The translations under genes and the position numbers were made by a program. The notes beneath the pieces are model-generated. The model ran no database searches. It was not told the origin of the DNA and saw only the letters and a list, made by a program, of their open reading frames with translations. Below, piece after piece: positions 2,116-50,225 of a stretch of 64,000 bases of DNA. The DNA comes from Favolaschia claudopus. Lineage: Eukaryota > Basidiomycota > Agaricomycetes > Agaricales > Mycenaceae. The stretch lies in assembly GCA_037176885.1 (NCBI GenBank), contig JAWWNJ010000052.1:744001-808000 (forward strand). Reading direction: 5' to 3'. The first letter of the stretch is position 1. Every line of letters begins with the position of its first letter.

Positions 2116-2316
2116 TATGCTGCTATCGAGCCGTTCTGCTCGTCTGCTAGTCTGGCTGGTCTCTCTCATGCTCAAAGCAACCTCTGTGGTCTTTGCCTTT
2201 TCACCTCCACGATCCCAAGCGGCAGCCTAATGACATCCTTGAGTAATCTCTGTCTCTCCAGCGCAAACCACTGAGGCATGAAGCTTCTTTCCATGACCGA
2301 TCTATGCCGTGGCTCT

Positions 2317-2534
2317 TAGACCGGTGACCGATCTCTCGTGTGAAGACAATCGTTCACAGAGAGACCGGTCGATCTGAGTTTGAATTCCCTTGAGGAGCCA
2401 TCAAAATAAAAATGGCGTCATTTGTCCCGTGCAAGTCACGTTTGATGCCCCATCAGCTGCCAAACAAGACCATCGGACGCGCTCGCGCTCTTCGTCTTCC
2501 TCTTCCTCTCTGTATTCTACGCGTCGTATACCTC
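2317..2534 (+). repeat. Left terminal inverted repeat, 218 bp
   Basis: Identical to the reverse complement of 8406-8623 at every base. It holds an imperfect hairpin: the arm at 2327-2344 pairs with 2353-2369. The second arm and its 3' side (2361-2375, GAGACCGGTCGATCT) repeat the terminal sequence. An ATG-containing segment at 2412 is present in both TIRs. The first codons of the DUF6589-like gene begin 16 bp inside the TIR. Confidence 0.95.
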
Positions 2535-2549
2535 TTCGCTGTCTAGAAC

Positions 2550-5500
2550 ATGTCTCTTAACAAGCAGCTATCATCCACCTCGCAATTCCCTGGTTCCTTC
2601 TCTCAATCTCGCCCACAAATCACTCCAGCTCCGCCGCCGAATGTAACTACTGCTCCTCCACCACCAGCTAAGCCCTGGCATTGACGTAAAGCCCCTCCGC
2701 CCCCGGTACTGGAGTCAACTGCCGCTCCGAATTCTCTTTTTCCGTCTTCATACGACACCTTTTTCACCAATTTCCGAAAGACTGCCTCGCTGCCGCTTTC
2801 ACAAAACTCCAGGCCGTTGCCTTCCTTTCCAGAGCTACTGAGCCAAACGAAAGAGAAATTTCAATCCCCCGAATTTGTTTTCGATCCTAGCGCCAGCATC
2901 ACTCCCCTGCGCAAAACACAATCCCAGTCAGATCTTGCTCGGACTACACTCAGTACACCAAATCTCCTGGTCTCGTCGCCAGATGTTCTTCCCACATCCG
3001 GCAGCTCCATTCCACGCCAAACAGATACTTCTTTCGATTATGATGCTGCACTCAATGTTCTCGACGACATGGAGGCTACAGCGCAGTACAGCCCTACTCC
3101 AAAGCCAGATCCCGAGCGTGCAGAGCTGAAACTTCACGGCTCCCGAGCTGAACGAATTCAAGATGTGTTAAAAATGCTACGCACTGCTCGGCTGTCTCCA
3201 GTCGATCTGTTACTCGAGGTCCTCGAAGGCGACTTACATCCTTATCATGCGACAATGTTTTACGCGAATTCCGGTGCAATTATGACGAAATTGTTAGATA
3301 CTATGGTGTCTGATGAGCGAGGGGGGCGTGTCTTCAGGCAGTGGGTCGAGCGCAGGGCGGTGGAAATAACGTGTGAGGTTGTTGAAGTGCAGATGGATGC
3401 GATGGTAAAGACCTTGACTTCAGCGCCGAGCCTCGCTAAGCTTCCGCCTGACGTGTTTCGTGTCTGGACTCTGGAGAAGACTGTTGAAATTCCTGCGCAT
3501 TCTCTCGCACCCGATGTCGTCCGGATTCTCTCTACCGCGCTGAATACGGAAAAGGCTTTAGCTAAGAATACTAAAAAAGAAAATGATACAGTTCGTCCGC
3601 TATTTTGTTCTTGTTGAGCCACAGATTTCCTAACCATCTGGATAGGCTCTTTTCTCAATCATAGGGCAGCTTGCGTCGAGGCGCTCCCAAAAATGTACAG
3701 ATTTCGCCGGCCCAATGACGCTCTATTGGTGGAAGAGTGGATGTTCGGAAGAAGTTCTTGAGGTCCTCCAGAACGTCGGTTTATCAAAATGTTTCGACTC
3801 ATGCTTGGATATGGTGACGACTGTTGCCGACTACTGCTTAGATGACGCTCGCAACGAGGCGCAAGATTCCGCGGGCTTCATGGGTAATTGGGACAACATC
3901 AACATGCTCAACTCAGAATCCTATGAGCAGCGTAGCGATGGCCCGGCCAAAGTTCGTTCTGGATCCTGTGGCGTTATCTATCGACTCTGTAGTCCTAACC
4001 CCAACGCCATGGCACTCGAACCTTTGCTCAAACGCGCGAAATCCGCTCCTGATCTCGAGTTCCACCGCGATATCTGCCCGACTCTTGACCAAAGCCTCCA
4101 CTGCTATCGAAATTTCCGCTCCTATATCGTTCGCGTTCTACTACGGTATAACAGTTCCGGGAAGGCATTCAAGGGATACGATACCCATCCGGCTTTGCAA
4201 CCGATCTCGCGCCGACCACTTCCCAAAGGACACGTAACCAAACAATTTCCTGTTCGCATCTCCACGATTGAAGAAAATTCGATCGCGGGAAATCTAGCAG
4301 TGCACGAGGACATTTTTGTCACCCAGCTTGGCCTTACACACGCAGAGCTTAGCAAGAAGGCAATCTTGTCTATCAATGACCAGGCTACGCAGTCTTTCAA
4401 CCGTGGCTGCAAAGCGATTCGTGCCCTGGATTTGAGTCCCTTCCTCCGAGCGCAGGTTTTCCAGCTCGGAATTGGACTCTTTCACCTCTGTCTCAACCTT
4501 GTCTGGGCTCTTCTGCATGCTCACCGCGGTCACGAAACAATCGAAGGCAGTCTCAGCTATTTCTTTGTTCTTTTGTTCAATGCTTCGTTCGGTTCGGGAG
4601 CGCCCAGGGCGTGGGGCGATGGGGTGCGCGAGGATGAACCCATTGCCCCACTCTGTGACTGCCTCCAATTGCGCAGAATTCGAAACGGGATTGATTATAA
4701 ACGAGAAAATAAAGGGAGGGTGGGTGGGAGAAGCAGAGCGACGTGAGGTCGGAACATTCGTGAGCGCGGAAAGCTGGCAGGACGAAGGAGATGATGGTGG
4801 TCGAGGAAAGAGAAAGGTCCGGAACTGATCGGCCCCTCTCTGCCGCTGTCACAAAACGGCACACTGTCTTCCCAGGCTCAGACAGTGTTTTCATCTTGGA
4901 AAAGACTCGGCTCGGTGGAAAACACCCCGACTACCATACATTGATGGCCGCTCTCATGCAGATTCTCGATGGTCTGCTCCCGGATGCATGGCGAATTGAA
5001 TGTGGCCGTGCTACGCTATCAGAATTTGCGCAAACAAAACCATCTCCAGAACAACTTCTTGCTATCGCAGATAACATTCTCTGCAACCATGCGACTCCAG
5101 AACGAAATCCATCATCATCTCCAGTAGACAATTTGCGAGAGAACACTCGACGACTCGTGCACGACCTTCTGTATGTTGCAGAGGTAACTCGTGCCATTTC
5201 AGATTGCGACTTTGGCCGTGTCGAGGACCTCCTTGGCAATTTGGCTATGATCTTTCGCGGCGCTGGCTCAAAAAATTATTGCACCGAGATTCTCCACTTC
5301 ATTCACAACTTGAAGTACGTGTGGAAGGGTGATGGGTTCGAGTGAGTTCAGTTTCTCCTATGGTTGAATTGTGGTTCATTTCACGTTTCAGTAACCTTGT
5401 CCGCGACAACATGATTTTCAACATGGGCTCGGGAAAAGGGCAAGGCGTCGATATGAATCTTGAGCATAACATTGGCAAGATCAAGGTATTTACGGGATTT

Positions 5501-5954
5501 CCTTTCTTTCTTTTTGCGAAACATGCTAACTTACCTCGTCATCTGAAAGCAATTATTTGCCGCCAAAGGGAATTATGCGGATTGGAGCCGCCTCGCGAAC
5601 ATTTCTGCGGCTATCGATGTTCTCAGCTCGATGAAGATTAATATTGGACGCTCCCTAGGTGCATGTTACAAGGGAACCAGTCATAAAGATGTCGACACGA
5701 GCTCACTTGTTTGGAGGGTCGCTCGCAAAGCAAAAGATCTCGAACTCAACACCACGCAGCCTAATCGCTCGGTTACTGCCACCCCCGATCTCTTACTCGT
5801 CGGAGAAGCTGCCATTAAGTCTTCAACACTTGCAAAGTTTAACAAGAAACGTCGTGAACTATTGAAGGGAATCGTCGACTCCGAGACAGGCGAAGACGAA
5901 GAAGATAGAGATGAACTTCCGGAGATGGACATCGGAGTTAGTTTAGACGACTAG
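2550..5954 (+). pseudogene. DUF6589-like large protein of the TAG element, broken
   Basis: From the ATG at 2550 a proline-rich N terminus is open except for an in-frame TGA at 2682-2684 (a CGA arginine changed to TGA would explain it). Exons continue across introns at 3591-3645, 5342-5391 and 5486-5549, with branch-like CTAAC motifs. Recognisable blocks are GFMGNWDNIN, AILSINDQATQSFNRG, VFQLGIGLFHLCLNLVW, EKTRLGGKHPDYHTL, GRVEDLLGNLAMIFRGAGSK and NLEHNIGKIKQLFAAKG. I recall these as the style of the greatly expanded Agaricomycete family that Pfam calls DUF6589. About 320 bp at 4574-4886 separates two blocks that are adjacent in that family; it is either a long intron or an insertion. The acidic residues in the NWDN and INDQ blocks could suit an RNase H-fold transposase, but that is inference. 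The stop codon TAG is at 5952-5954, and an acidic tail precedes it. Confidence 0.7.
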
Positions 5955-5987
5955 AATTTACATAGCTAGGTAATTGAACACTGCGTC

Positions 5988-8550
5988 TCAAGCCTTTCTC
6001 CGTTTAGCTCGTGGGCCTTCTTCTTCGTCATCACCGTTGACCGGTGTATATCCCGAAACAAGTTTAAACAATCCATCCGCCCACAATCCCGCCCATTCTT
6101 CGGTTTGTTTCAGGAGTGTTGTGATAGATTCGGCTGAGTTGATCGAGTCCGGGGCCGCCATGGCTAATTTTTTGATATCGGGAGCGTCCAAGATAAATGT
6201 CGGTGGTCGGACTGCACGGAGGTGGAAGTTACGGTGTACATCAAATCTCCATCGACCCAGCAATTCTTCGAGTAGCGGACGGTCCCGAGTCGGGCGGTAT
6301 ACATTGCGGCGACGTTTAGCTGCGGTCGGTACTACTGGTTGCTCTTCATAGATTGAGCCGAGAAATAATTTCTGCAACTCGAAGGTGCTTCCGACGTGAG
6401 CCTTTGAGTCACAGCACCAGCGACCCGTATAATAGAGCGCTACCAATGCGGGTAAGTATTTTCAGATAAGGGACGTTAACTCACCTTCAGCAGAGTCGTC
6501 CCCATAGTAAGCAGCCTTCAGAACTCGTTCGCACTCGTCGGAGACAGCAAAATGAATTGAAGCTCGACCGGTGCGCTCCTGCTTTGTCGGGTTCTTCTTT
6601 GTGAGAGAAATATCTTGAAGCGGGCAATCAGGGTCATTCGAGTCGATGATCAATGTACTGGAGTCGATTTCGGCCACCCAAGGTTCGATCATACTCACGC
6701 AAAATGCCTCATCGTCTGTACTTCGCCCACCGCGTCCCATTGTGTCTTGGTTGTTACTTCCTCCGCGATCCCATAAGTGATTACGCCTTCAATGCGCGGG
6801 ATATCAACGTCCTCGTAAAGAAAACAGTCAATGTTGTATTGAAAGAAGAGGTGAGAAGTGTAAATTACCTCCCCCGCACCTGCAGTTGCACACAAAATTA
6901 ATGTGCGTCCTTCCGGATCCGCGAAATCGGAGTAAACTTGGTCAAGGTATTGTCTTGACATCTCGGCATGGTAGTGACGACAGATTCCAGTGCCTCGAAG
7001 GCCATCAGGCAAGCGCGAATCGATATACTGTGCAGCCGCCGAAGTTTCAATTTTGACGCCGAAAAAGATAAGAAGAGTTGGCAAGCGCATTGGTGGATGA
7101 AAAGCAGCGGGAACAATCATATCGAGATTGCGCAGATCATGTCGTCCGTTGACCAAGATGTGACGAGCGTAGACAAGGTTGGGGCGATTTGTTGAGACTC
7201 GAATAACAGTAGGATTTGGATGAAGAGCCAGAGAGGAGTTTATATGATTGAATAGCCTGTTTGCGATGCAGCCATTGAATGGCTAATGGCTACGCAAGTG
7301 CCCGAATTCCGGCGTATTGACGAAAGCTACCCCCGGTCTGAGCATCCAATTTTCATTCCAAATAGCTCTTCTTGACTTCGACATAAAAGTTTAGCCCATC
7401 AAACTTTCCTAATACGGAAATCGGTAGCCATTCAATGGCTCCAATGGCTCTTCGCAAACCCTCTAATATGTGGGAGGGAACAGTCGCAGAAAGCAGAGTC
7501 AGAGAGGTGTCTTTGTTCAGACGGGTTCGCAGCTGGGAAAGATTGCCGTAGGCAGGCCTGAAAGCTTTTCGGTTATTTCGGCTAGAGCCGGCAGTGAAGA
7601 GATTATGACACTCGTCAACAACGAGTCTTGCGATGCGGGACACAAATTTGGATTTATGCAAGAGACGAGCGAGCTTGGGGAGATGACCGTGCTGCATAGA
7701 GAACTGTTCCGGAGTTGCGATGAGATGCGAGATGTGTCCGTCCGAAATTGCCTGTAGGAAGATCCAAGGGAAGATTTGGGGGCGAAAGAAGCTAAAATAA
7801 ACACGAACCGACCAAAGGTCTTTATCATCCGGCGTATCTTCATTTATTGCGACAGTCCTGATACAGAATTTATTCAGGAAGTCAGAGACCTAGAAATATA
7901 GCTCAGCAAAGACATCTGAATGAATATATTGACCGGAGGCTTCCCACCTGCATTGCTTGAAGGCGCTTCAAGGGTGTAATCGTAACCGTGATTTTGTCCG
8001 GGCATAGCAAGAGTGGAATAGCAATGCACAGGGTCTTGCCCCACCCCGTTCGGGCAATTACAAATGTCTCCTTCCCATTCATTGCTCAGATTCCGGCGTC
8101 CAGTTGTAGCTCTTTTGGAGTGAACCGTCCGCGAGTGACCGTGAAAACAAGAAAGCAAGCACGAAGAGCCATGATGTGATCCGTTGTTGAGAGCTCGGAA
8201 AGATAGTCGTCGCCAGAACGCATTGATATCGGAAGAACTACACGGGAATAATAAATGATTTCTTTCTCGTCCAGCAAGCGGATCATAGCAAGAATTCCCG
8301 GCATAGCACTCCAGGGCACAGTCTCGAGAGCTCGGCGGTAATTTCGGCCTCTGATGAATCCAGGAGTATCAATAGCATAACACTGTGGGCATTCTGAGAG
8401 CTCATGAGGTATACGACGCGTAGAATACAGAGAGGAAGAGGAAGACGAAGAGCGCGAGCGCGTCCGATGGTCTTGTTTGGCAGCTGATGGGGCATCAAAC
8501 GTGACTTGCACGGGACAAATGACGCCATTTTTATTTTGATGGCTCCTCAA
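5988..8550 (-). pseudogene. RecQ-like DEAD/DEAH helicase of the TAG element, broken
   Basis: Reading on the minus strand: a Q-motif-like segment (RGRFTPKELQLDAG), Walker A VIARTGWGKTL near 8050, ATPEQF near 7720, Walker B VVDECHNLF near 7610, motif III LLSATVPSHIL near 7480, then STNRPNLVYARH, IEGVITYGI and GRGGR (motif VI) near 6730. A cysteine-containing C-terminal extension ends at 5988. Introns are visible at the expected gaps, for example before VSDFLNKF and before QAISDGH. Known RecQ proteins unwind DNA 3'-5' with ATP. Lesions seen: an in-frame TGA at 8086-8088 just before Walker A (CGA to TGA would explain it), a MITE at 7259-7459 between the two helicase lobes, and loss of one A near 6745 that shifts frame before motif VI. 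The start is uncertain; the frame is open back into the TIR. Confidence 0.8.
7259..7459 (+). mobile_element. MITE-A copy 1, inside the RecQ-like gene
   Basis: A roughly 200-bp element with TIRs GTTTGCGA...CCATTG and ...CAATGG...TCGCAAAC, rich in the motif CCATTGAATGGCTA. The same sequence recurs at 48611-48812, in split form at 25511-26186 and as an inverted half at 9510-9592. It separates motif III from the second lobe of the helicase. CCT flanks both ends, a possible 3-bp duplication, but flanks of other copies do not settle the TSD. Confidence 0.75.
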
Positions 8551-8623
8551 GGGAATTCAAACTCAGATCGACCGGTCTCTCTGTGAACGATTGTCTTCAC
8601 ACGAGAGATCGGTCACCGGTCTA
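8406..8623 (-). repeat. Right terminal inverted repeat, 218 bp
   Basis: Exact inverted copy of 2317-2534. The upstream part of the RecQ-like reading frame lies within it. Just outside is the second copy of the 9-bp duplication, CGTGGCTCT at 8624-8632. Confidence 0.95.
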
Positions 8624-8866
8624 CGTGGCTCTCGCATCTCGCTAACGAGATTCAGAGCCGGAATTTACCTCCTTTTTCCGACCACCTTGAGCCTTCCGGC
8701 ATCACGACAGATCCTGCCGCATCGTTTCCCTATTTTTCGTTCGCATGTTTCTTGGGAGTACCAAACCTTTACTGGAGCATCTGATTCATGCGGATATTCG
8801 TCTATCATGATCCTCTTCATCTGAGTCTATTCTTTTGGGACGGCGGTCCTTAATCGTATCTCTCCC

Positions 8867-9520
8867 ATGAACCACACCAATTACAATGAACGACTAAGTA
8901 CCGAGGACCCTCCTGGATCACGGGAGGGTTTCGGGGACGTGGTACAGCCCTCTCGTCAGTGCCTGCCGGCTGCGAGTCCAGAGAGCGAAATCAGCAGGAG
9001 TCGAGGCGAATTGGGGCCTAGCCCCTACTATCCTTCACGCGGCCCCCTCTGTAGCAGTTCGTCTGCTCTGGCTGTTACAGCGACGGGCGAAGAGCAGAGC
9101 CCTCGTCCCTCTTCGGTTGCGACCGTGATTTTAGATGATGATTCGCCGTGGTTGCCTCCGGTACCTGCGACGGATCAGAACTTAGGATTTCAGTCCAACA
9201 ACACTTCAGATGTTTCGCGGGTAAATGGAGAGGGACTATCAAGCTCCCGCAATACTGACACCAATCCGACTCGAAGTCTAAATACTGACACGCATTTCGG
9301 TAATATAGACGCGAATGAACTACAACGAGATCAAACTCACGCGCATTTAAATCAACAAATCTTTACAGACAACGATCCAATCATCGAGCCAGATCAAACT
9401 CAAGCGCATTGAAATCGACAAATTTTTACGGACAACGATCCAACTTTCGAGCCAGAAAACTGGGAGGAAATAAACCGAAATATACGAAGAGCAAACAAAC
9501 CCCCAAAGCCGCCTCCATTG
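8867..9520 (+). pseudogene. Unidentified serine/proline-rich frame with in-frame TGA
   Basis: Open from an ATG at 8867 to TGA at 9410-9412. The same frame then resumes (NRQIFTDNDPTFEPENWEE...) until the MITE-A fragment at 9510. The internal phrase IFTDNDP(I/T)xEP occurs twice, before and after the stop, so a short repeat was duplicated. It may be the disordered N terminus of the Helitron-related protein whose Rep part appears near 10750, but no domain links them. No function is assigned. Confidence 0.4.
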
Positions 9521-9592
9521 GAGCCATTGAATGGCTACCGATTTCCGCATTAGGAAAGTTTGATGGGCTACACTTGCATGTCGAAGGAGGAT
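9510..9592 (-). repeat. MITE-A fragment (inverted half copy)
   Basis: The segment matches, in inverted orientation, the right half of MITE-A at 7370-7452, including GCCATTGAATGGCTACCGATTTCC. The other TIR is missing. Confidence 0.7.
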
Positions 9593-25510: not shown

Positions 25511-26186
25511 AGCCTGTTTGCGATGCAGCCATTGAATGGCTAATGCTATCCAAATTCCGGCGTATTGACAAGAGATACCCCGGTCTGAGCATCCGAATTT
25601 CATTCCAAATAGCTCTTCTTGACTTCGACACAAGGGTGCGCCGGTGTTTACACCGGCGACCTAGGGCCGGTTAGTTAGTCCGGCCGCCAGGCGGGGAAAA
25701 AAATCTTTGACCCCCTAGTTTGTGGGTCAGAACGCAATCCCGGAGGTGCTGAGAAGCGCCTAGAGTAGTTATGGTATAAAGTGATGAAATGAGTCCTTGC
25801 TTGAAACATCAGTCCCGGACACAGTTTTGGTAACAATGTGTTCATGTTTGGCTCCGCCTCTGGATTAGAAGTGTTGTCCGGCAGGTTCCTCCCTGAGTAA
25901 AAAGGACTTAATGGATGCTAAAACCATCCCATAGATGATTTGAAGTTGATCTGAACACATTTTGGACGTCCAGTTGGTCCGTTGAAAGTTCAGCAGCGCA
26001 CCGGTAACTAGAGCGTGAGAGGATATCACCGTATATGGTGCGTGGGAGCACTTACGTAGTATGTTAGTCCAGTCGCCGAGCCGGAAAAAAGAAAATCGGC
26101 CCTATATCTTTTTTTAGAATGCCGGTGCACCCTTGCTTCGACATAAAAGTTCAGCCATCAAACTTTCCTAATACGGAAATCCGTAG
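25511..26186 (+). mobile_element. MITE-A copy 2, split by a hAT MITE and 3'-truncated
   Basis: GTTTGCGATGCAGCC at 25511 opens the copy. It continues to 25630 and resumes at 26144 after the inserted element; the right TIR is cut off after about 26186. It interrupts the Helitron helicase gene between the FAGPSAG block and the NICDDLR segment. Confidence 0.75.
25631..26135. mobile_element. hAT-like MITE, 505 bp, nested in MITE-A
   Basis: Ends CAAGGGTGCGCCGG... and ...CCGGTGCACCCTTG, flanked by the 8-bp duplication CTTCGACA (25623-25630 and 26136-26143). CAAGGGTG-type ends and an 8-bp TSD are typical of hAT. No coding capacity. Removing it and one duplication rejoins MITE-A. Confidence 0.92.
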
Positions 26187-26971
26187 CCAATCGAAGATAA
26201 AAGCGCTCCCCAGCAGAAGGTCCAGCAAAGAACATTCTTCCGATGGCAAATTGTTTGCTTCCTTACTGCCCACTTGGTAGTAGGTTTGTTCCATACAAAA
26301 TGCTGTGGAAACTCCTGGTATAGAGAGTCTCTGGCCTTGGGAAGGTCATTTGCACAGGCTTTGAAGAATGCAGTGAGAGTAGTGTCCTTTGTAGCTCCTC
26401 TGTTGAGCACAGTTTCGGCATCATCATTTGGTTGAAGACTACACTCTGTTCATTCGGAAGATGGAGTTGGAGACGAACAACTGTAGCCTGTAGGCTTCTC
26501 CTCATGCAATCTGTACCGAAGAAGTCGCCAAGTGGCCTCAGGAGCTGATATATAACGACTGTCCAGATGTAATTTGATTTCATCATTCTGTTGTTCAACT
26601 GTGAGGGTACTGCGGTCGTGGCCTTTGTAGACATATTTATGGATATACTTGGTTGCTTTGAGAAATAGAGATACAGCATTCAACATTCATATGACAGCCA
26701 TATTCCAGAAGTGCTCTGCAAAGAATTTACACACCATATATCGATTCAAATCTTGAGTGAAAGTATAAGCTTTTTCTTACCTGGGATTATAAGGAACAAT
26801 CCAGCGGTTATCTATAGTCTTGCCCTTGTCAATAAAAGTAACACCATTTTGTGGTCTTGCATAAATTGCATATCCATCCTCAAGCTAGTCGTGTCTCGGC
26901 CTGAAATGGCTTGGATAGCCCTTTGAACATTTTTCCATCTTTCATACAGGGTCATTGCCACAGGGTCGGTG

Positions 26972-47250: not shown

Positions 47251-48610
47251 GCATGTCTAGGCGTGCCATTGCCTCCTCATTCTGGTCGATCAATGCTATC
47301 TTTATCCGACGCTCCATGTCAGCATATGCGTTAAAAAGCAGGATTTTGATGCATACCTGATGCTCGGCATTTTTGCCGTTCGTGATTTGGTACATCTCGC
47401 TGACCTCTTGCTGAAAGCCTTCCCCGACGATGTCTCAGACTCAGAACCCGAGAGAGAAGCTAAAAGATTGAAAATCCGAGCGGAACGAAGAGCCAAGCGT
47501 CGCCTGCGTCGGGAAACTGAAAACTTGAATCTTCAGTCCGTTGAGAGTACTAGTCAGCCGGGTGCGTGAATGATTTATATTGAATAGATGCAATCTCTGA
47601 TTACAGCTGTTTGCATAGTTAATGGCACCTCCTGAATTTTTATGAAAAGAAAGCATTTCAAACGTCCTATCTTCCCGCTCTCATATCTCATTCAATTTCC
47701 AACCAATTCACACAGTTCAAGTTTTGTTCTGAAGCACTTTGGCAGGGGCTCCAAACTGCCGGCAAATAGCGGCAAGTGCTTCCGAAATGTGATGGCATCA
47801 TGCCGAGATTATTTGTCCCAACTGGGATGTGATTTGCTTCGTTCTGGCTCAATTCTGGACGGTTTTGTGTGCCATAAAGCAATATTAGCGGAAGAATAAA
47901 GCTAAAATCAGGTCTGCAATCACACCTTTTGAAAATATGCAGATACAATTGCTCAGCGCCGAGAACGATCACTTCCTCAATAATTTCATTCTGCTGTTAG
48001 TGGTTTGCTGTTGTCTTACATTTTGAGCTTGCAGACCTCATTACCTACCTAATGGCTACAAAATCTCAATAATCGAAGTGATTCTGAACAGAAATGAACA
48101 AGTTTTTTCAGGTTCGTTGTTCGTATTATCCCCGATGACCGGCAGTCAAGGGACGCAAAGGGATCGGATTAGGGGACACCCTAGATATAGGATGGAAGCC
48201 CTACAAAATGAGCCTAGAATCATGCTGATTGGTCCATAAATGGCTGTGTAAGGAGCAATACAAGTTCGGACATTTAAATTGCTCTTCATATACAAAATGA
48301 TCGAAAGTGCCATTAGCTTTGCAAACAGCTGTAATAGTTTCTAGAGAATCGAAAGCCGTATTCCCCCAGAGCAGACAGGCTGCGAAAACGCCGGAGATTG
48401 ATGGTGGACAAATGTGTCGGTCCAAATTCACCGTTAGGCAACATCGAGTCAGCCCTGGTTTCAGACAGGGTCTTGGACAACCTAGATAACGGCCTGGATC
48501 TACTGCTGGAGAAACTAGATGGGTTGGAAGCGAGGTTTGGGTTTGCGAGGCGCGAGACTTGAGTCGAGTACTGAGAATGAGCGTTTGATAGCAAATCATC
48601 ACAATACCGA
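47251..48610. other. Intergenic, no gene recognised
   Basis: Scattered short frames on both strands. None carries a motif I can name. Confidence 0.35.
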
Positions 48611-48812
48611 GTTTGCGATGCAGCCATTGGATGGCTAATGGCTACACAAAAGTCAAAATCCAGGCGCATTGACAAAGGCTAAACCCTGGTTTCAGCATCC
48701 AAACTTCATTCCACGCACCTCTTGTATAATTTGACATCAATCTTTGGGCCATCAAAGTTCCCTAATCGGGAAATTGTTAGCCATTCAATGGCTCCAATGG
48801 CTCATCGCAAAC
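48611..48812 (+). mobile_element. MITE-A copy 3
   Basis: Full-length copy from GTTTGCGATGCAGCC to CATCGCAAAC, 202 bp, diverged from 7259-7459 at scattered sites. Confidence 0.8.
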
Positions 48813-50225
48813 CCTCTAATGTCACATCGTCACACCACCTCTTCTCTCTTGACCACGACCACCAGCGACGACACCTGTGTCTCTGTACGACTCAACAACA
48901 ACCTACCCTCTGGCGACGACAACGCTACCCCTTAATCCCGGAGTCTACATGATGACATCATAGCCACAAGCGGTTGCGTGGGGCGAGTGGGGGCGGGTGG
49001 GGCCTTGGGACTCTTCTATCAATCCCCACATTCTATTTCTCATGCCTCCACGTCGGCGCATTGATAGTGAAGAACCCACCACGCCGGAGCGTCCCCGCAC
49101 GCAGGGACCTTTGGCCAATATCCTCAATGTTTTCCAACAAATCACCCCGAGCAAGAGCGATCGGGATATACGCGGGGTGCGCGTTCTGTTTTTTTCTTAA
49201 CGTGCAGCGGTTACTCAACTACTTTCAGCTGCGCGAGGATCTCCAGGTGCTTCTCAATGAGGCCGAAGACGTCTTTTCCGCCAAGGATAGCGAAATCGCC
49301 GACCTTTCCAACCAAGTCGTTCCGACCAAGAATCGCAGGCGTCGTAAGCGCTTTCATCGCGCAGACGACGCCGACGACTCCGTCGACAACCCGTCTTCCC
49401 TTGAGGAACGGGTTCGAAAGGCCGGTCGCCGCTTTGCTGTCAACGAAGCCGCCTTCTTCATCGACGAGGTGGATATCTGGACCAACGAAGCCGAAGACGA
49501 GTTCGACTACGCCACAGAGTTTCAACTCCAAGACCACCCGTGTTCAGGCCCAGATCCAAGACCTTCTCCGCTTGCTCCCCAACGATGCTCCATCTCGGGC
49601 GTACCCAGGAATGGGTCGGCGATGCAGTGCGTGGTGGTTTAATTTTCCTTTCTTTCTAAACCATAATTTATTATAGTTCGTGGATGGCATGGGGCGGCCA
49701 GCGCTCTGCTGCCGTTCACCGCATACGCCATGCCAGCCTGGCTCATCTCAGCGCCGCGGATAAACTCAAACACTTTGCCACTGCCAGCGACCGTTTCGAG
49801 CATTTTAAAGATCGCGTGGGATATGTCGCCGCCACCGAGACCAAAGAAGCCTTCTACTCCGCATTCAAGGCGCCAATCCTCTACGACCAGTTCGACGGGG
49901 AACTTGACGTCGACCATCTCTTCCGAAACCCTTTACTTCTTAAGGTGCGTGTTGATACGTATAATTGTTTTCTTCCGCTTATGACGATTGTTACAGATTT
50001 ATGCCTGCATCTTGCGTGGTCCCGACGGCGCCGATGGCCTGCTCGAAGGTCGTCCTCACCAACCTCAGGCGCAGTGCGTGCAGAGAATCCACCACATCTC
50101 TCGCACCTCTACTGGTGCCATCGCCAACGTCGCTGTCCTCGTATGTTTGTCTCATCGTTCTTCATTCGTTTGCTCATCGGGTTTTCCAGGCCATTTGGCT
50201 CTACTCCTGCGGACACAAAATTCCA

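Follow-up and report, generated by a model that had tools for sequence, protein, structure and literature searches.

A decayed two-gene DNA transposon of Favolaschia claudopus with a probable DUF6589 transposase and a RecQ-type helicase

A stretch of 64,000 nucleotides from the basidiomycete Favolaschia claudopus (assembly GCA_037176885.1, contig JAWWNJ010000052.1, positions 744,001 to 808,000), hereafter the window, harbors at positions 2317..8623 an element of 6307 bp (~6.3 kb) that is bounded by terminal inverted repeats (TIRs) and carries two convergent genes, one for a protein of the DUF6589 family and the other for a RecQ-type helicase. This feature is very likely a copy, now decayed, of a DNA transposon with two genes, in which the DUF6589 protein is the DDE transposase and the helicase is an accessory. 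Judged by its gene content and by the length of its target site duplication (TSD), the element probably belongs with AcademH, which is known to us by description only. The element is thus probably of a known kind, to which two points would be added: the identification of DUF6589 as a DDE transposase, found in none of the open-licence PubMed Central (PMC) papers searched, and the existence of a relative without a detectable helicase.

Structure of the element and decay of its genes

The initial annotation, made from the window sequence, had described 218-bp perfect TIRs, a 9-bp direct repeat at both flanks and two convergent genes 33 bp apart, and all of these were borne out: positions 2317-2534 and 8406-8623 are 100% complementary over 218 nt, CGTGGCTCT is found at 2308-2316 and again at 8624-8632, and the DUF6589 frame ends at 5954, facing the end of the helicase frame at 5988 on the minus strand. 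The features of the element are as follows.

2308..2316, no strand: left TSD copy, 9 bp, CGTGGCTCT; found once in each of three unoccupied paralogous sites
2317..2534, plus strand: left TIR, 218 bp, starting TAGACCGGTGACC; from the TIR comparison, with genome matches at 41 places or more
2550..5954, plus strand: DUF6589 gene (putative DDE transposase), broken; from open reading frames (ORFs), Pfam and homologue comparison
4571..4893, no strand: insert of ~320 bp within the DUF6589 frame; also present in the C99 copy, missing in the C20 copy
5988..8556, minus strand: remnant of the RecQ-type helicase gene, convergent with DUF6589; family assigned from sister copies
7251..7464, no strand: 214-bp insertion in the helicase gene resembling a miniature inverted-repeat transposable element (MITE); missing in both C99 and C20
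8406..8623, minus strand: right TIR, 218 bp, fully complementary to the left; from the TIR comparison
8624..8632, no strand: right TSD copy, 9 bp, CGTGGCTCT; from the flank comparison

When ten ORF pieces of the window copy were scanned against Pfam, two plus-strand pieces matched DUF6589 above the cut-off (6e-29 and 1.7e-35) and a third matched it below the cut-off, and the sole standout match on the minus strand was DEAD, also below the cut-off. The helicase is clearer in the C20 sister copy, where it matches DEAD at 3.5e-8 and, among PDB chains, members of the RecQ family (Q1 at 9e-6, BLM at 2e-5), with a top row at 4e-6 that is labelled only 'ATP-dependent DNA helicase'. A piece of the C99 sister copy (326 residues) matched DEAD at 3.4e-4, below the Pfam cut-off, and a search of PDB chains with it gave zero matches at E<=1.

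Neither gene is intact in the window copy, a point absent from the initial annotation. The DUF6589 gene has a stop codon at 2682-2684 in addition to the ~320-bp insert, and the helicase gene is interrupted by the MITE-like insert; the C99 and C20 copies have their own inserts and short gaps. By eye, comparison with homologues indicated apparent introns in the DUF6589 gene at 3591-3645, 5342-5391 and 5486-5549, and protein P0157 of a relative shares 91-100% identity with parts of four window DUF6589 pieces. The outermost helicase ORF of the window copy extends into the right TIR. The MITE-like repeat that interrupts the helicase gene has GCCATTGAATGGC near its end, and whole or partial copies of it are found elsewhere in the window (9515-9586, 25511-25633, 26132-26192 and 48603-48820) at 80-94% identity.

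Evidence of insertion and mobility

TIRs of the window type were matched at 41 or more places in the genome, a lower bound, and three full-length TIR pairs were recovered: the window copy, C99:341935-348472 and C20:1971227-1977551. Since these three copies share the TSD and have homologous flanks, they represent a single insertion event that was duplicated afterwards or is read as several haplotypes. The initial annotation had proposed a search for copies with intact versions of both genes between matching TIRs and 9-bp duplications; the three full-length pairs of this genome share one site, and the genes of the window copy are broken. When joined without the element, the flanks aligned almost end to end with five unoccupied loci, at 92-95% identity in three (C139, C27 and C14) and at 75% in two (C102 and C49). 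The three unoccupied loci that were read at base level contain CGTGGCTCT once each, and such a single 9-mer in related unoccupied sites indicates that the window element did insert.

The same TIR ends also bound gene-less short copies of ~600 bp. TSDs were checked at eight of 18 other TIR loci whose sequence was retrieved, and perfect duplications of 9 or 10 bp, every one different, flank six of these eight short copies, indicating that the ends of this family were mobilised at independent sites. At a further locus (C56:238566-241716, positions 501-2651), two outward element ends lie 2.15 kb apart, and their flanks are reverse complements of each other, as if the ends stood within a larger inverted duplication.

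DUF6589 elements elsewhere in the genome

DUF6589 gave at least 117 matches in the genome, merging into at least 102 loci, both figures being lower bounds, and four DUF6589 stretches of 8 kb each were read in detail. Convergent RecQ and DUF6589 genes lie between TIRs in C285 (L061), with open frames of 753 codons for RecQ and 682 for DUF6589, and likewise in C59 (L062). Of the other two stretches, one contains the element with DUF6589 alone that is treated below, and L059 showed no TIR. Additionally, the ends were examined at ten further loci, each with a convergent RecQ gene by coordinates: TIRs, 97-100% identical, were found in nine of the ten, and 9-bp TSDs in seven. C24 and C110 are one site read on opposite strands, as are C253 and C139, so the seven stand for five independent sites. 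In a divergent family (L085), the TIRs are 80% identical, DUF6589 and RecQ are both present, and the duplication GTTAGAAAA measures 9 or 10 bp. An inverted-repeat scan of L086 returned a weak 56-bp pair (E 0.057), and a generic scan of seven loci for TA-termini with exact 9-bp TSDs returned none, although it also missed known ones.

The strongest single argument for DUF6589 as the mobility enzyme is an element that carries DUF6589 without a detectable RecQ gene. The C72 and C158 loci have in common 3174 bp (~3.2 kb) at 99.97% identity, bounded by TAATCTCGGG and CGAGACTA and flanked by different 9-bp TSDs (GGTCTACCG and CGACTTCAA), so that two independent sites are represented. The Pfam scan showed that this element encodes DUF6589, and the RecQ queries used gave no match in it, leaving no detectable helicase; a helicase might nevertheless be provided in trans.

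DUF6589 as a candidate DDE transposase

The initial annotation had suggested that the DUF6589 protein might be the transposase and had proposed that a structure model of a homologue be examined for an RNase H fold with DDE residues. The AlphaFold model of a DUF6589 homologue was found to match the DDE transposases of the P element and Hermes, Transib and RAG1, and an RNase H-like core is present in this model; the VIA-align rows omit other DDE families, an omission that is no evidence against those families. In the aligned sequences, a candidate D-D-E triad (D197, D356 and E595) is nearly invariant and occupies the expected places. The predicted fold and the triad, together with the TIR elements that carry DUF6589 between independent 9-bp TSDs and the element without a detectable helicase, support the suggestion and make it very probable that DUF6589 is a DDE transposase. 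A comparison of the DUF6589 alignment with viral contigs matched 12 stretches by pattern, and none was confirmed.

The protein would have an RNase H-like core into which a helical segment is inserted, and as modelled it would be fold kin of the transposases of the P element, hAT and Transib/RAG1. It would bind the TIRs, catalyze excision of the element and insert it through a 9-bp staggered cut, which would leave the 9-bp TSD, so that movement would be by cut-and-paste rather than copy-out. The short copies that retain only the TIR ends would have been moved in trans. The RecQ-type helicase, encoded on the opposite strand, may open the DNA at the ends or act at repair or gap-filling steps, as an accessory that not every element would carry.

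Linkage between RecQ and DUF6589

All linkage counts were obtained with the L061-type helicase as the query, which gave 75 genome matches merging into 41 loci. Of these 41 RecQ loci, 19 have a DUF6589 locus within 4 kb, although only ~0.35% of the genome is that near, and 18 of the 19 pairs are convergent; the 19 include insertions that recur on two or three contigs, so the independent pairs are fewer. This linkage is what supports the suggestion of the initial annotation that the helicase is a partner of the DUF6589 protein, and it is consistent with an accessory whose biochemical role we infer. The helicase is common in DUF6589 elements and far from universal, with some cases missed through short flanks or diverged helicases.

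In the remaining pair (L059, C190:259128-267127), the DUF6589 and RecQ genes are head to head, ~2 kb apart, unlike the convergent order elsewhere, and the 8 kb read contained no TIR pair and no inverted repeats more than 1.5 kb apart. On contig C84, between ~154 and 382 kb, seven unpaired RecQ fragments were observed, most of them with several stop codons; no listed DUF6589 lies within 4 kb of them, and some have identical scores, as copies would.

Comparison with known transposons

AcademH, a lineage of Academ (Kojima 2020, Mob DNA 11:15), is described in an excerpt of a paper citing it as encoding a helicase and generating TSDs of 9 or 10 bp (PMC10045372), and in another excerpt as low-copy in Basidiomycota, Ascomycota and Mucoromycota (PMC10799480). 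Therefore, the statement of the initial annotation that no described element with this gene pair was known does not hold, as far as these excerpts describe AcademH. The elements found here resemble it in having a helicase, of RecQ type in sister copies and relatives, beside the transposase; in their TSDs, which are of 9 bp in the window copy and in seven of ten relatives and of 9 or 10 bp in six of eight short copies; and in belonging to Basidiomycota, the closest DUF6589 proteins among the matches listed being from Mycena and Favolaschia. However, the low copy number described differs from the 102 or more DUF6589 loci of this genome, which counts against the AcademH placement. The same AcademH-citing paper, in the excerpt consulted, considers TSD length to be seemingly tied to the helicase or nuclease (PMC10045372), in contrast to the relative with 9-bp TSDs and no detectable helicase observed here. 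The latter is a hint that TSD length is set by the transposase rather than the helicase, unless a helicase is supplied by other elements, and it bears on that published suggestion.

KolobokH, a transposon of fungi, combines a DDD/E transposase with a RecQ helicase, which the excerpt available places downstream of the transposase domain (PMC9587614). The present elements would share the combination of a DDE-type transposase with RecQ, and differ in that RecQ is a separate convergent gene. Kolobok TSDs are TTAA, and KolobokH was rejected since the TSD here is of 9 bp. The P element and hAT families produce TSDs of 8 bp and are not known to carry a helicase; the DUF6589 elements differ from the P element and hAT (Hermes) in their 9-bp TSDs, in their helicase and in that DUF6589 found no sequence match in the PDB. 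KDZ and Plavaka, DNA transposons of Agaricomycetes, may carry an accessory enzyme gene of the TET/JBP type, according to an excerpt of PMC12730594. An accessory enzyme gene is likewise present here, but it is RecQ, and the scanned DUF6589 pieces match no Pfam family except PF20231. In Marasmius oreades, putative non-autonomous MULE and Academ elements are described as widespread, and the MULE transposase domain is given as pfam10551, both in excerpts of PMC8290104. MULE (MuDR) was rejected because none of the 23 ORF pieces scanned against Pfam contains a MULE domain.

Weighing of the evidence and alternative explanations

Several observations weigh against a two-gene transposon moved by DUF6589. 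The TIRs of L061 and L062, and those of the C27 and C20 relatives among the ten further loci, are without TSDs, as are two of the eight short copies examined, and the C208 relative showed no TIR within the stretch fetched. The full-length sisters are not independent insertions, and mobility of the exact family is visible only through its short derivatives. Regarding the protein, the fold match belongs to the model of a homologue rather than to the broken window protein, Foldseek by itself returned nothing at E<=0.001 from the PDB or from BFVD (a viral library), and the DUF6589 profile found no PDB sequence at E<=1. Additionally, 16 acidic positions exceed 90% in alignment A2, so the triad is not the sole conserved set, and in the wider alignment E530 and D591 equal it in invariance; the triad assignment therefore rests on position as well. 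With respect to the linkage, 22 of the 41 RecQ loci lie more than 4 kb from any DUF6589 locus, 83 of the 102 DUF6589 loci have no L061-type RecQ within that distance (19 are paired), and RecQ was found in the 1.5-kb flanks of only four of the best 30 DUF6589 loci, a low count that short flanks and diverged helicases may partly explain. The right flank of the TSD-less C285 copy (L061) matches a flank of the C306 copy (L068), whose TSD is intact, as if the former were either a recombinant copy or an assembly join.

It is possible, and in our view rather unlikely, that the DUF6589 elements constitute a DDE superfamily separate from Academ and within the P/hAT/RAG structural group, that generates 9-bp TSDs with or without a helicase and has repeatedly taken up a removable RecQ gene independently, as KolobokH did. 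Such a separate origin would agree with the restriction of the Pfam and PDB sequence results noted above, with the members that have no detectable helicase and with the contrast between the low copy number described for AcademH and the abundance of DUF6589. It would also agree with the literature, since no open-licence PMC paper naming DUF6589 was found and the sole match to PF20231/IPR046496 was an unrelated optics paper. However, AcademH as excerpted already fits by helicase, TSD length and occurrence in Basidiomycota, and the lack of a sequence link between DUF6589 and Academ is no evidence for separateness, AcademH having been compared by description only. If a separate superfamily were true, it would account for the multiplication of DUF6589 in mushroom genomes and would contradict a helicase-dictated TSD length.

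That both are ordinary host genes enclosed by MITE or MULE ends, with the transposase elsewhere, is highly improbable. The gene-less ~600-bp copies do have the same TIR ends, and 9-bp TSDs also occur in MULEs; yet the same convergent gene pair recurs inside different TIR sequences, the DUF6589 homologue model matches DDE transposases, and the MULE domain is missing from the pieces scanned. Hardly credible is a rolling-circle, Helitron-like system in which the helicase is the essential mobility enzyme and DUF6589 its cargo. The element does contain a helicase, and Helitron movement involves helicases, according to an excerpt of PMC12730594. However, the helicase here is RecQ-like, the model of the DUF6589 homologue resembles DDE transposases, and the DUF6589 element without a detectable helicase has moved, albeit with a helicase in trans being possible. 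TIRs with 9-bp TSDs are, moreover, ill-suited to rolling-circle insertion and disfavour such an origin.

With DUF6589 as the probable transposase of an AcademH-like element, genes that are now of unknown function would become transposon genes, which would give a simple reason for their number. Two protein searches returned species-named matches from many mushroom species, annotated as hypothetical or DUF6589 proteins. The frequent pairing with RecQ would also offer a system in which the reason for a DNA transposon to carry a helicase can be tested.

Neighbouring sequence

Just outside the left TSD, the minus strand of the window carries at 930-2069 a copia-type gag ORF (Retrotran_gag_2, 1.4e-17). 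At least part of this flank is also found beside the C99 and C20 copies, indicating that the element adjoins duplicated retrotransposon DNA.
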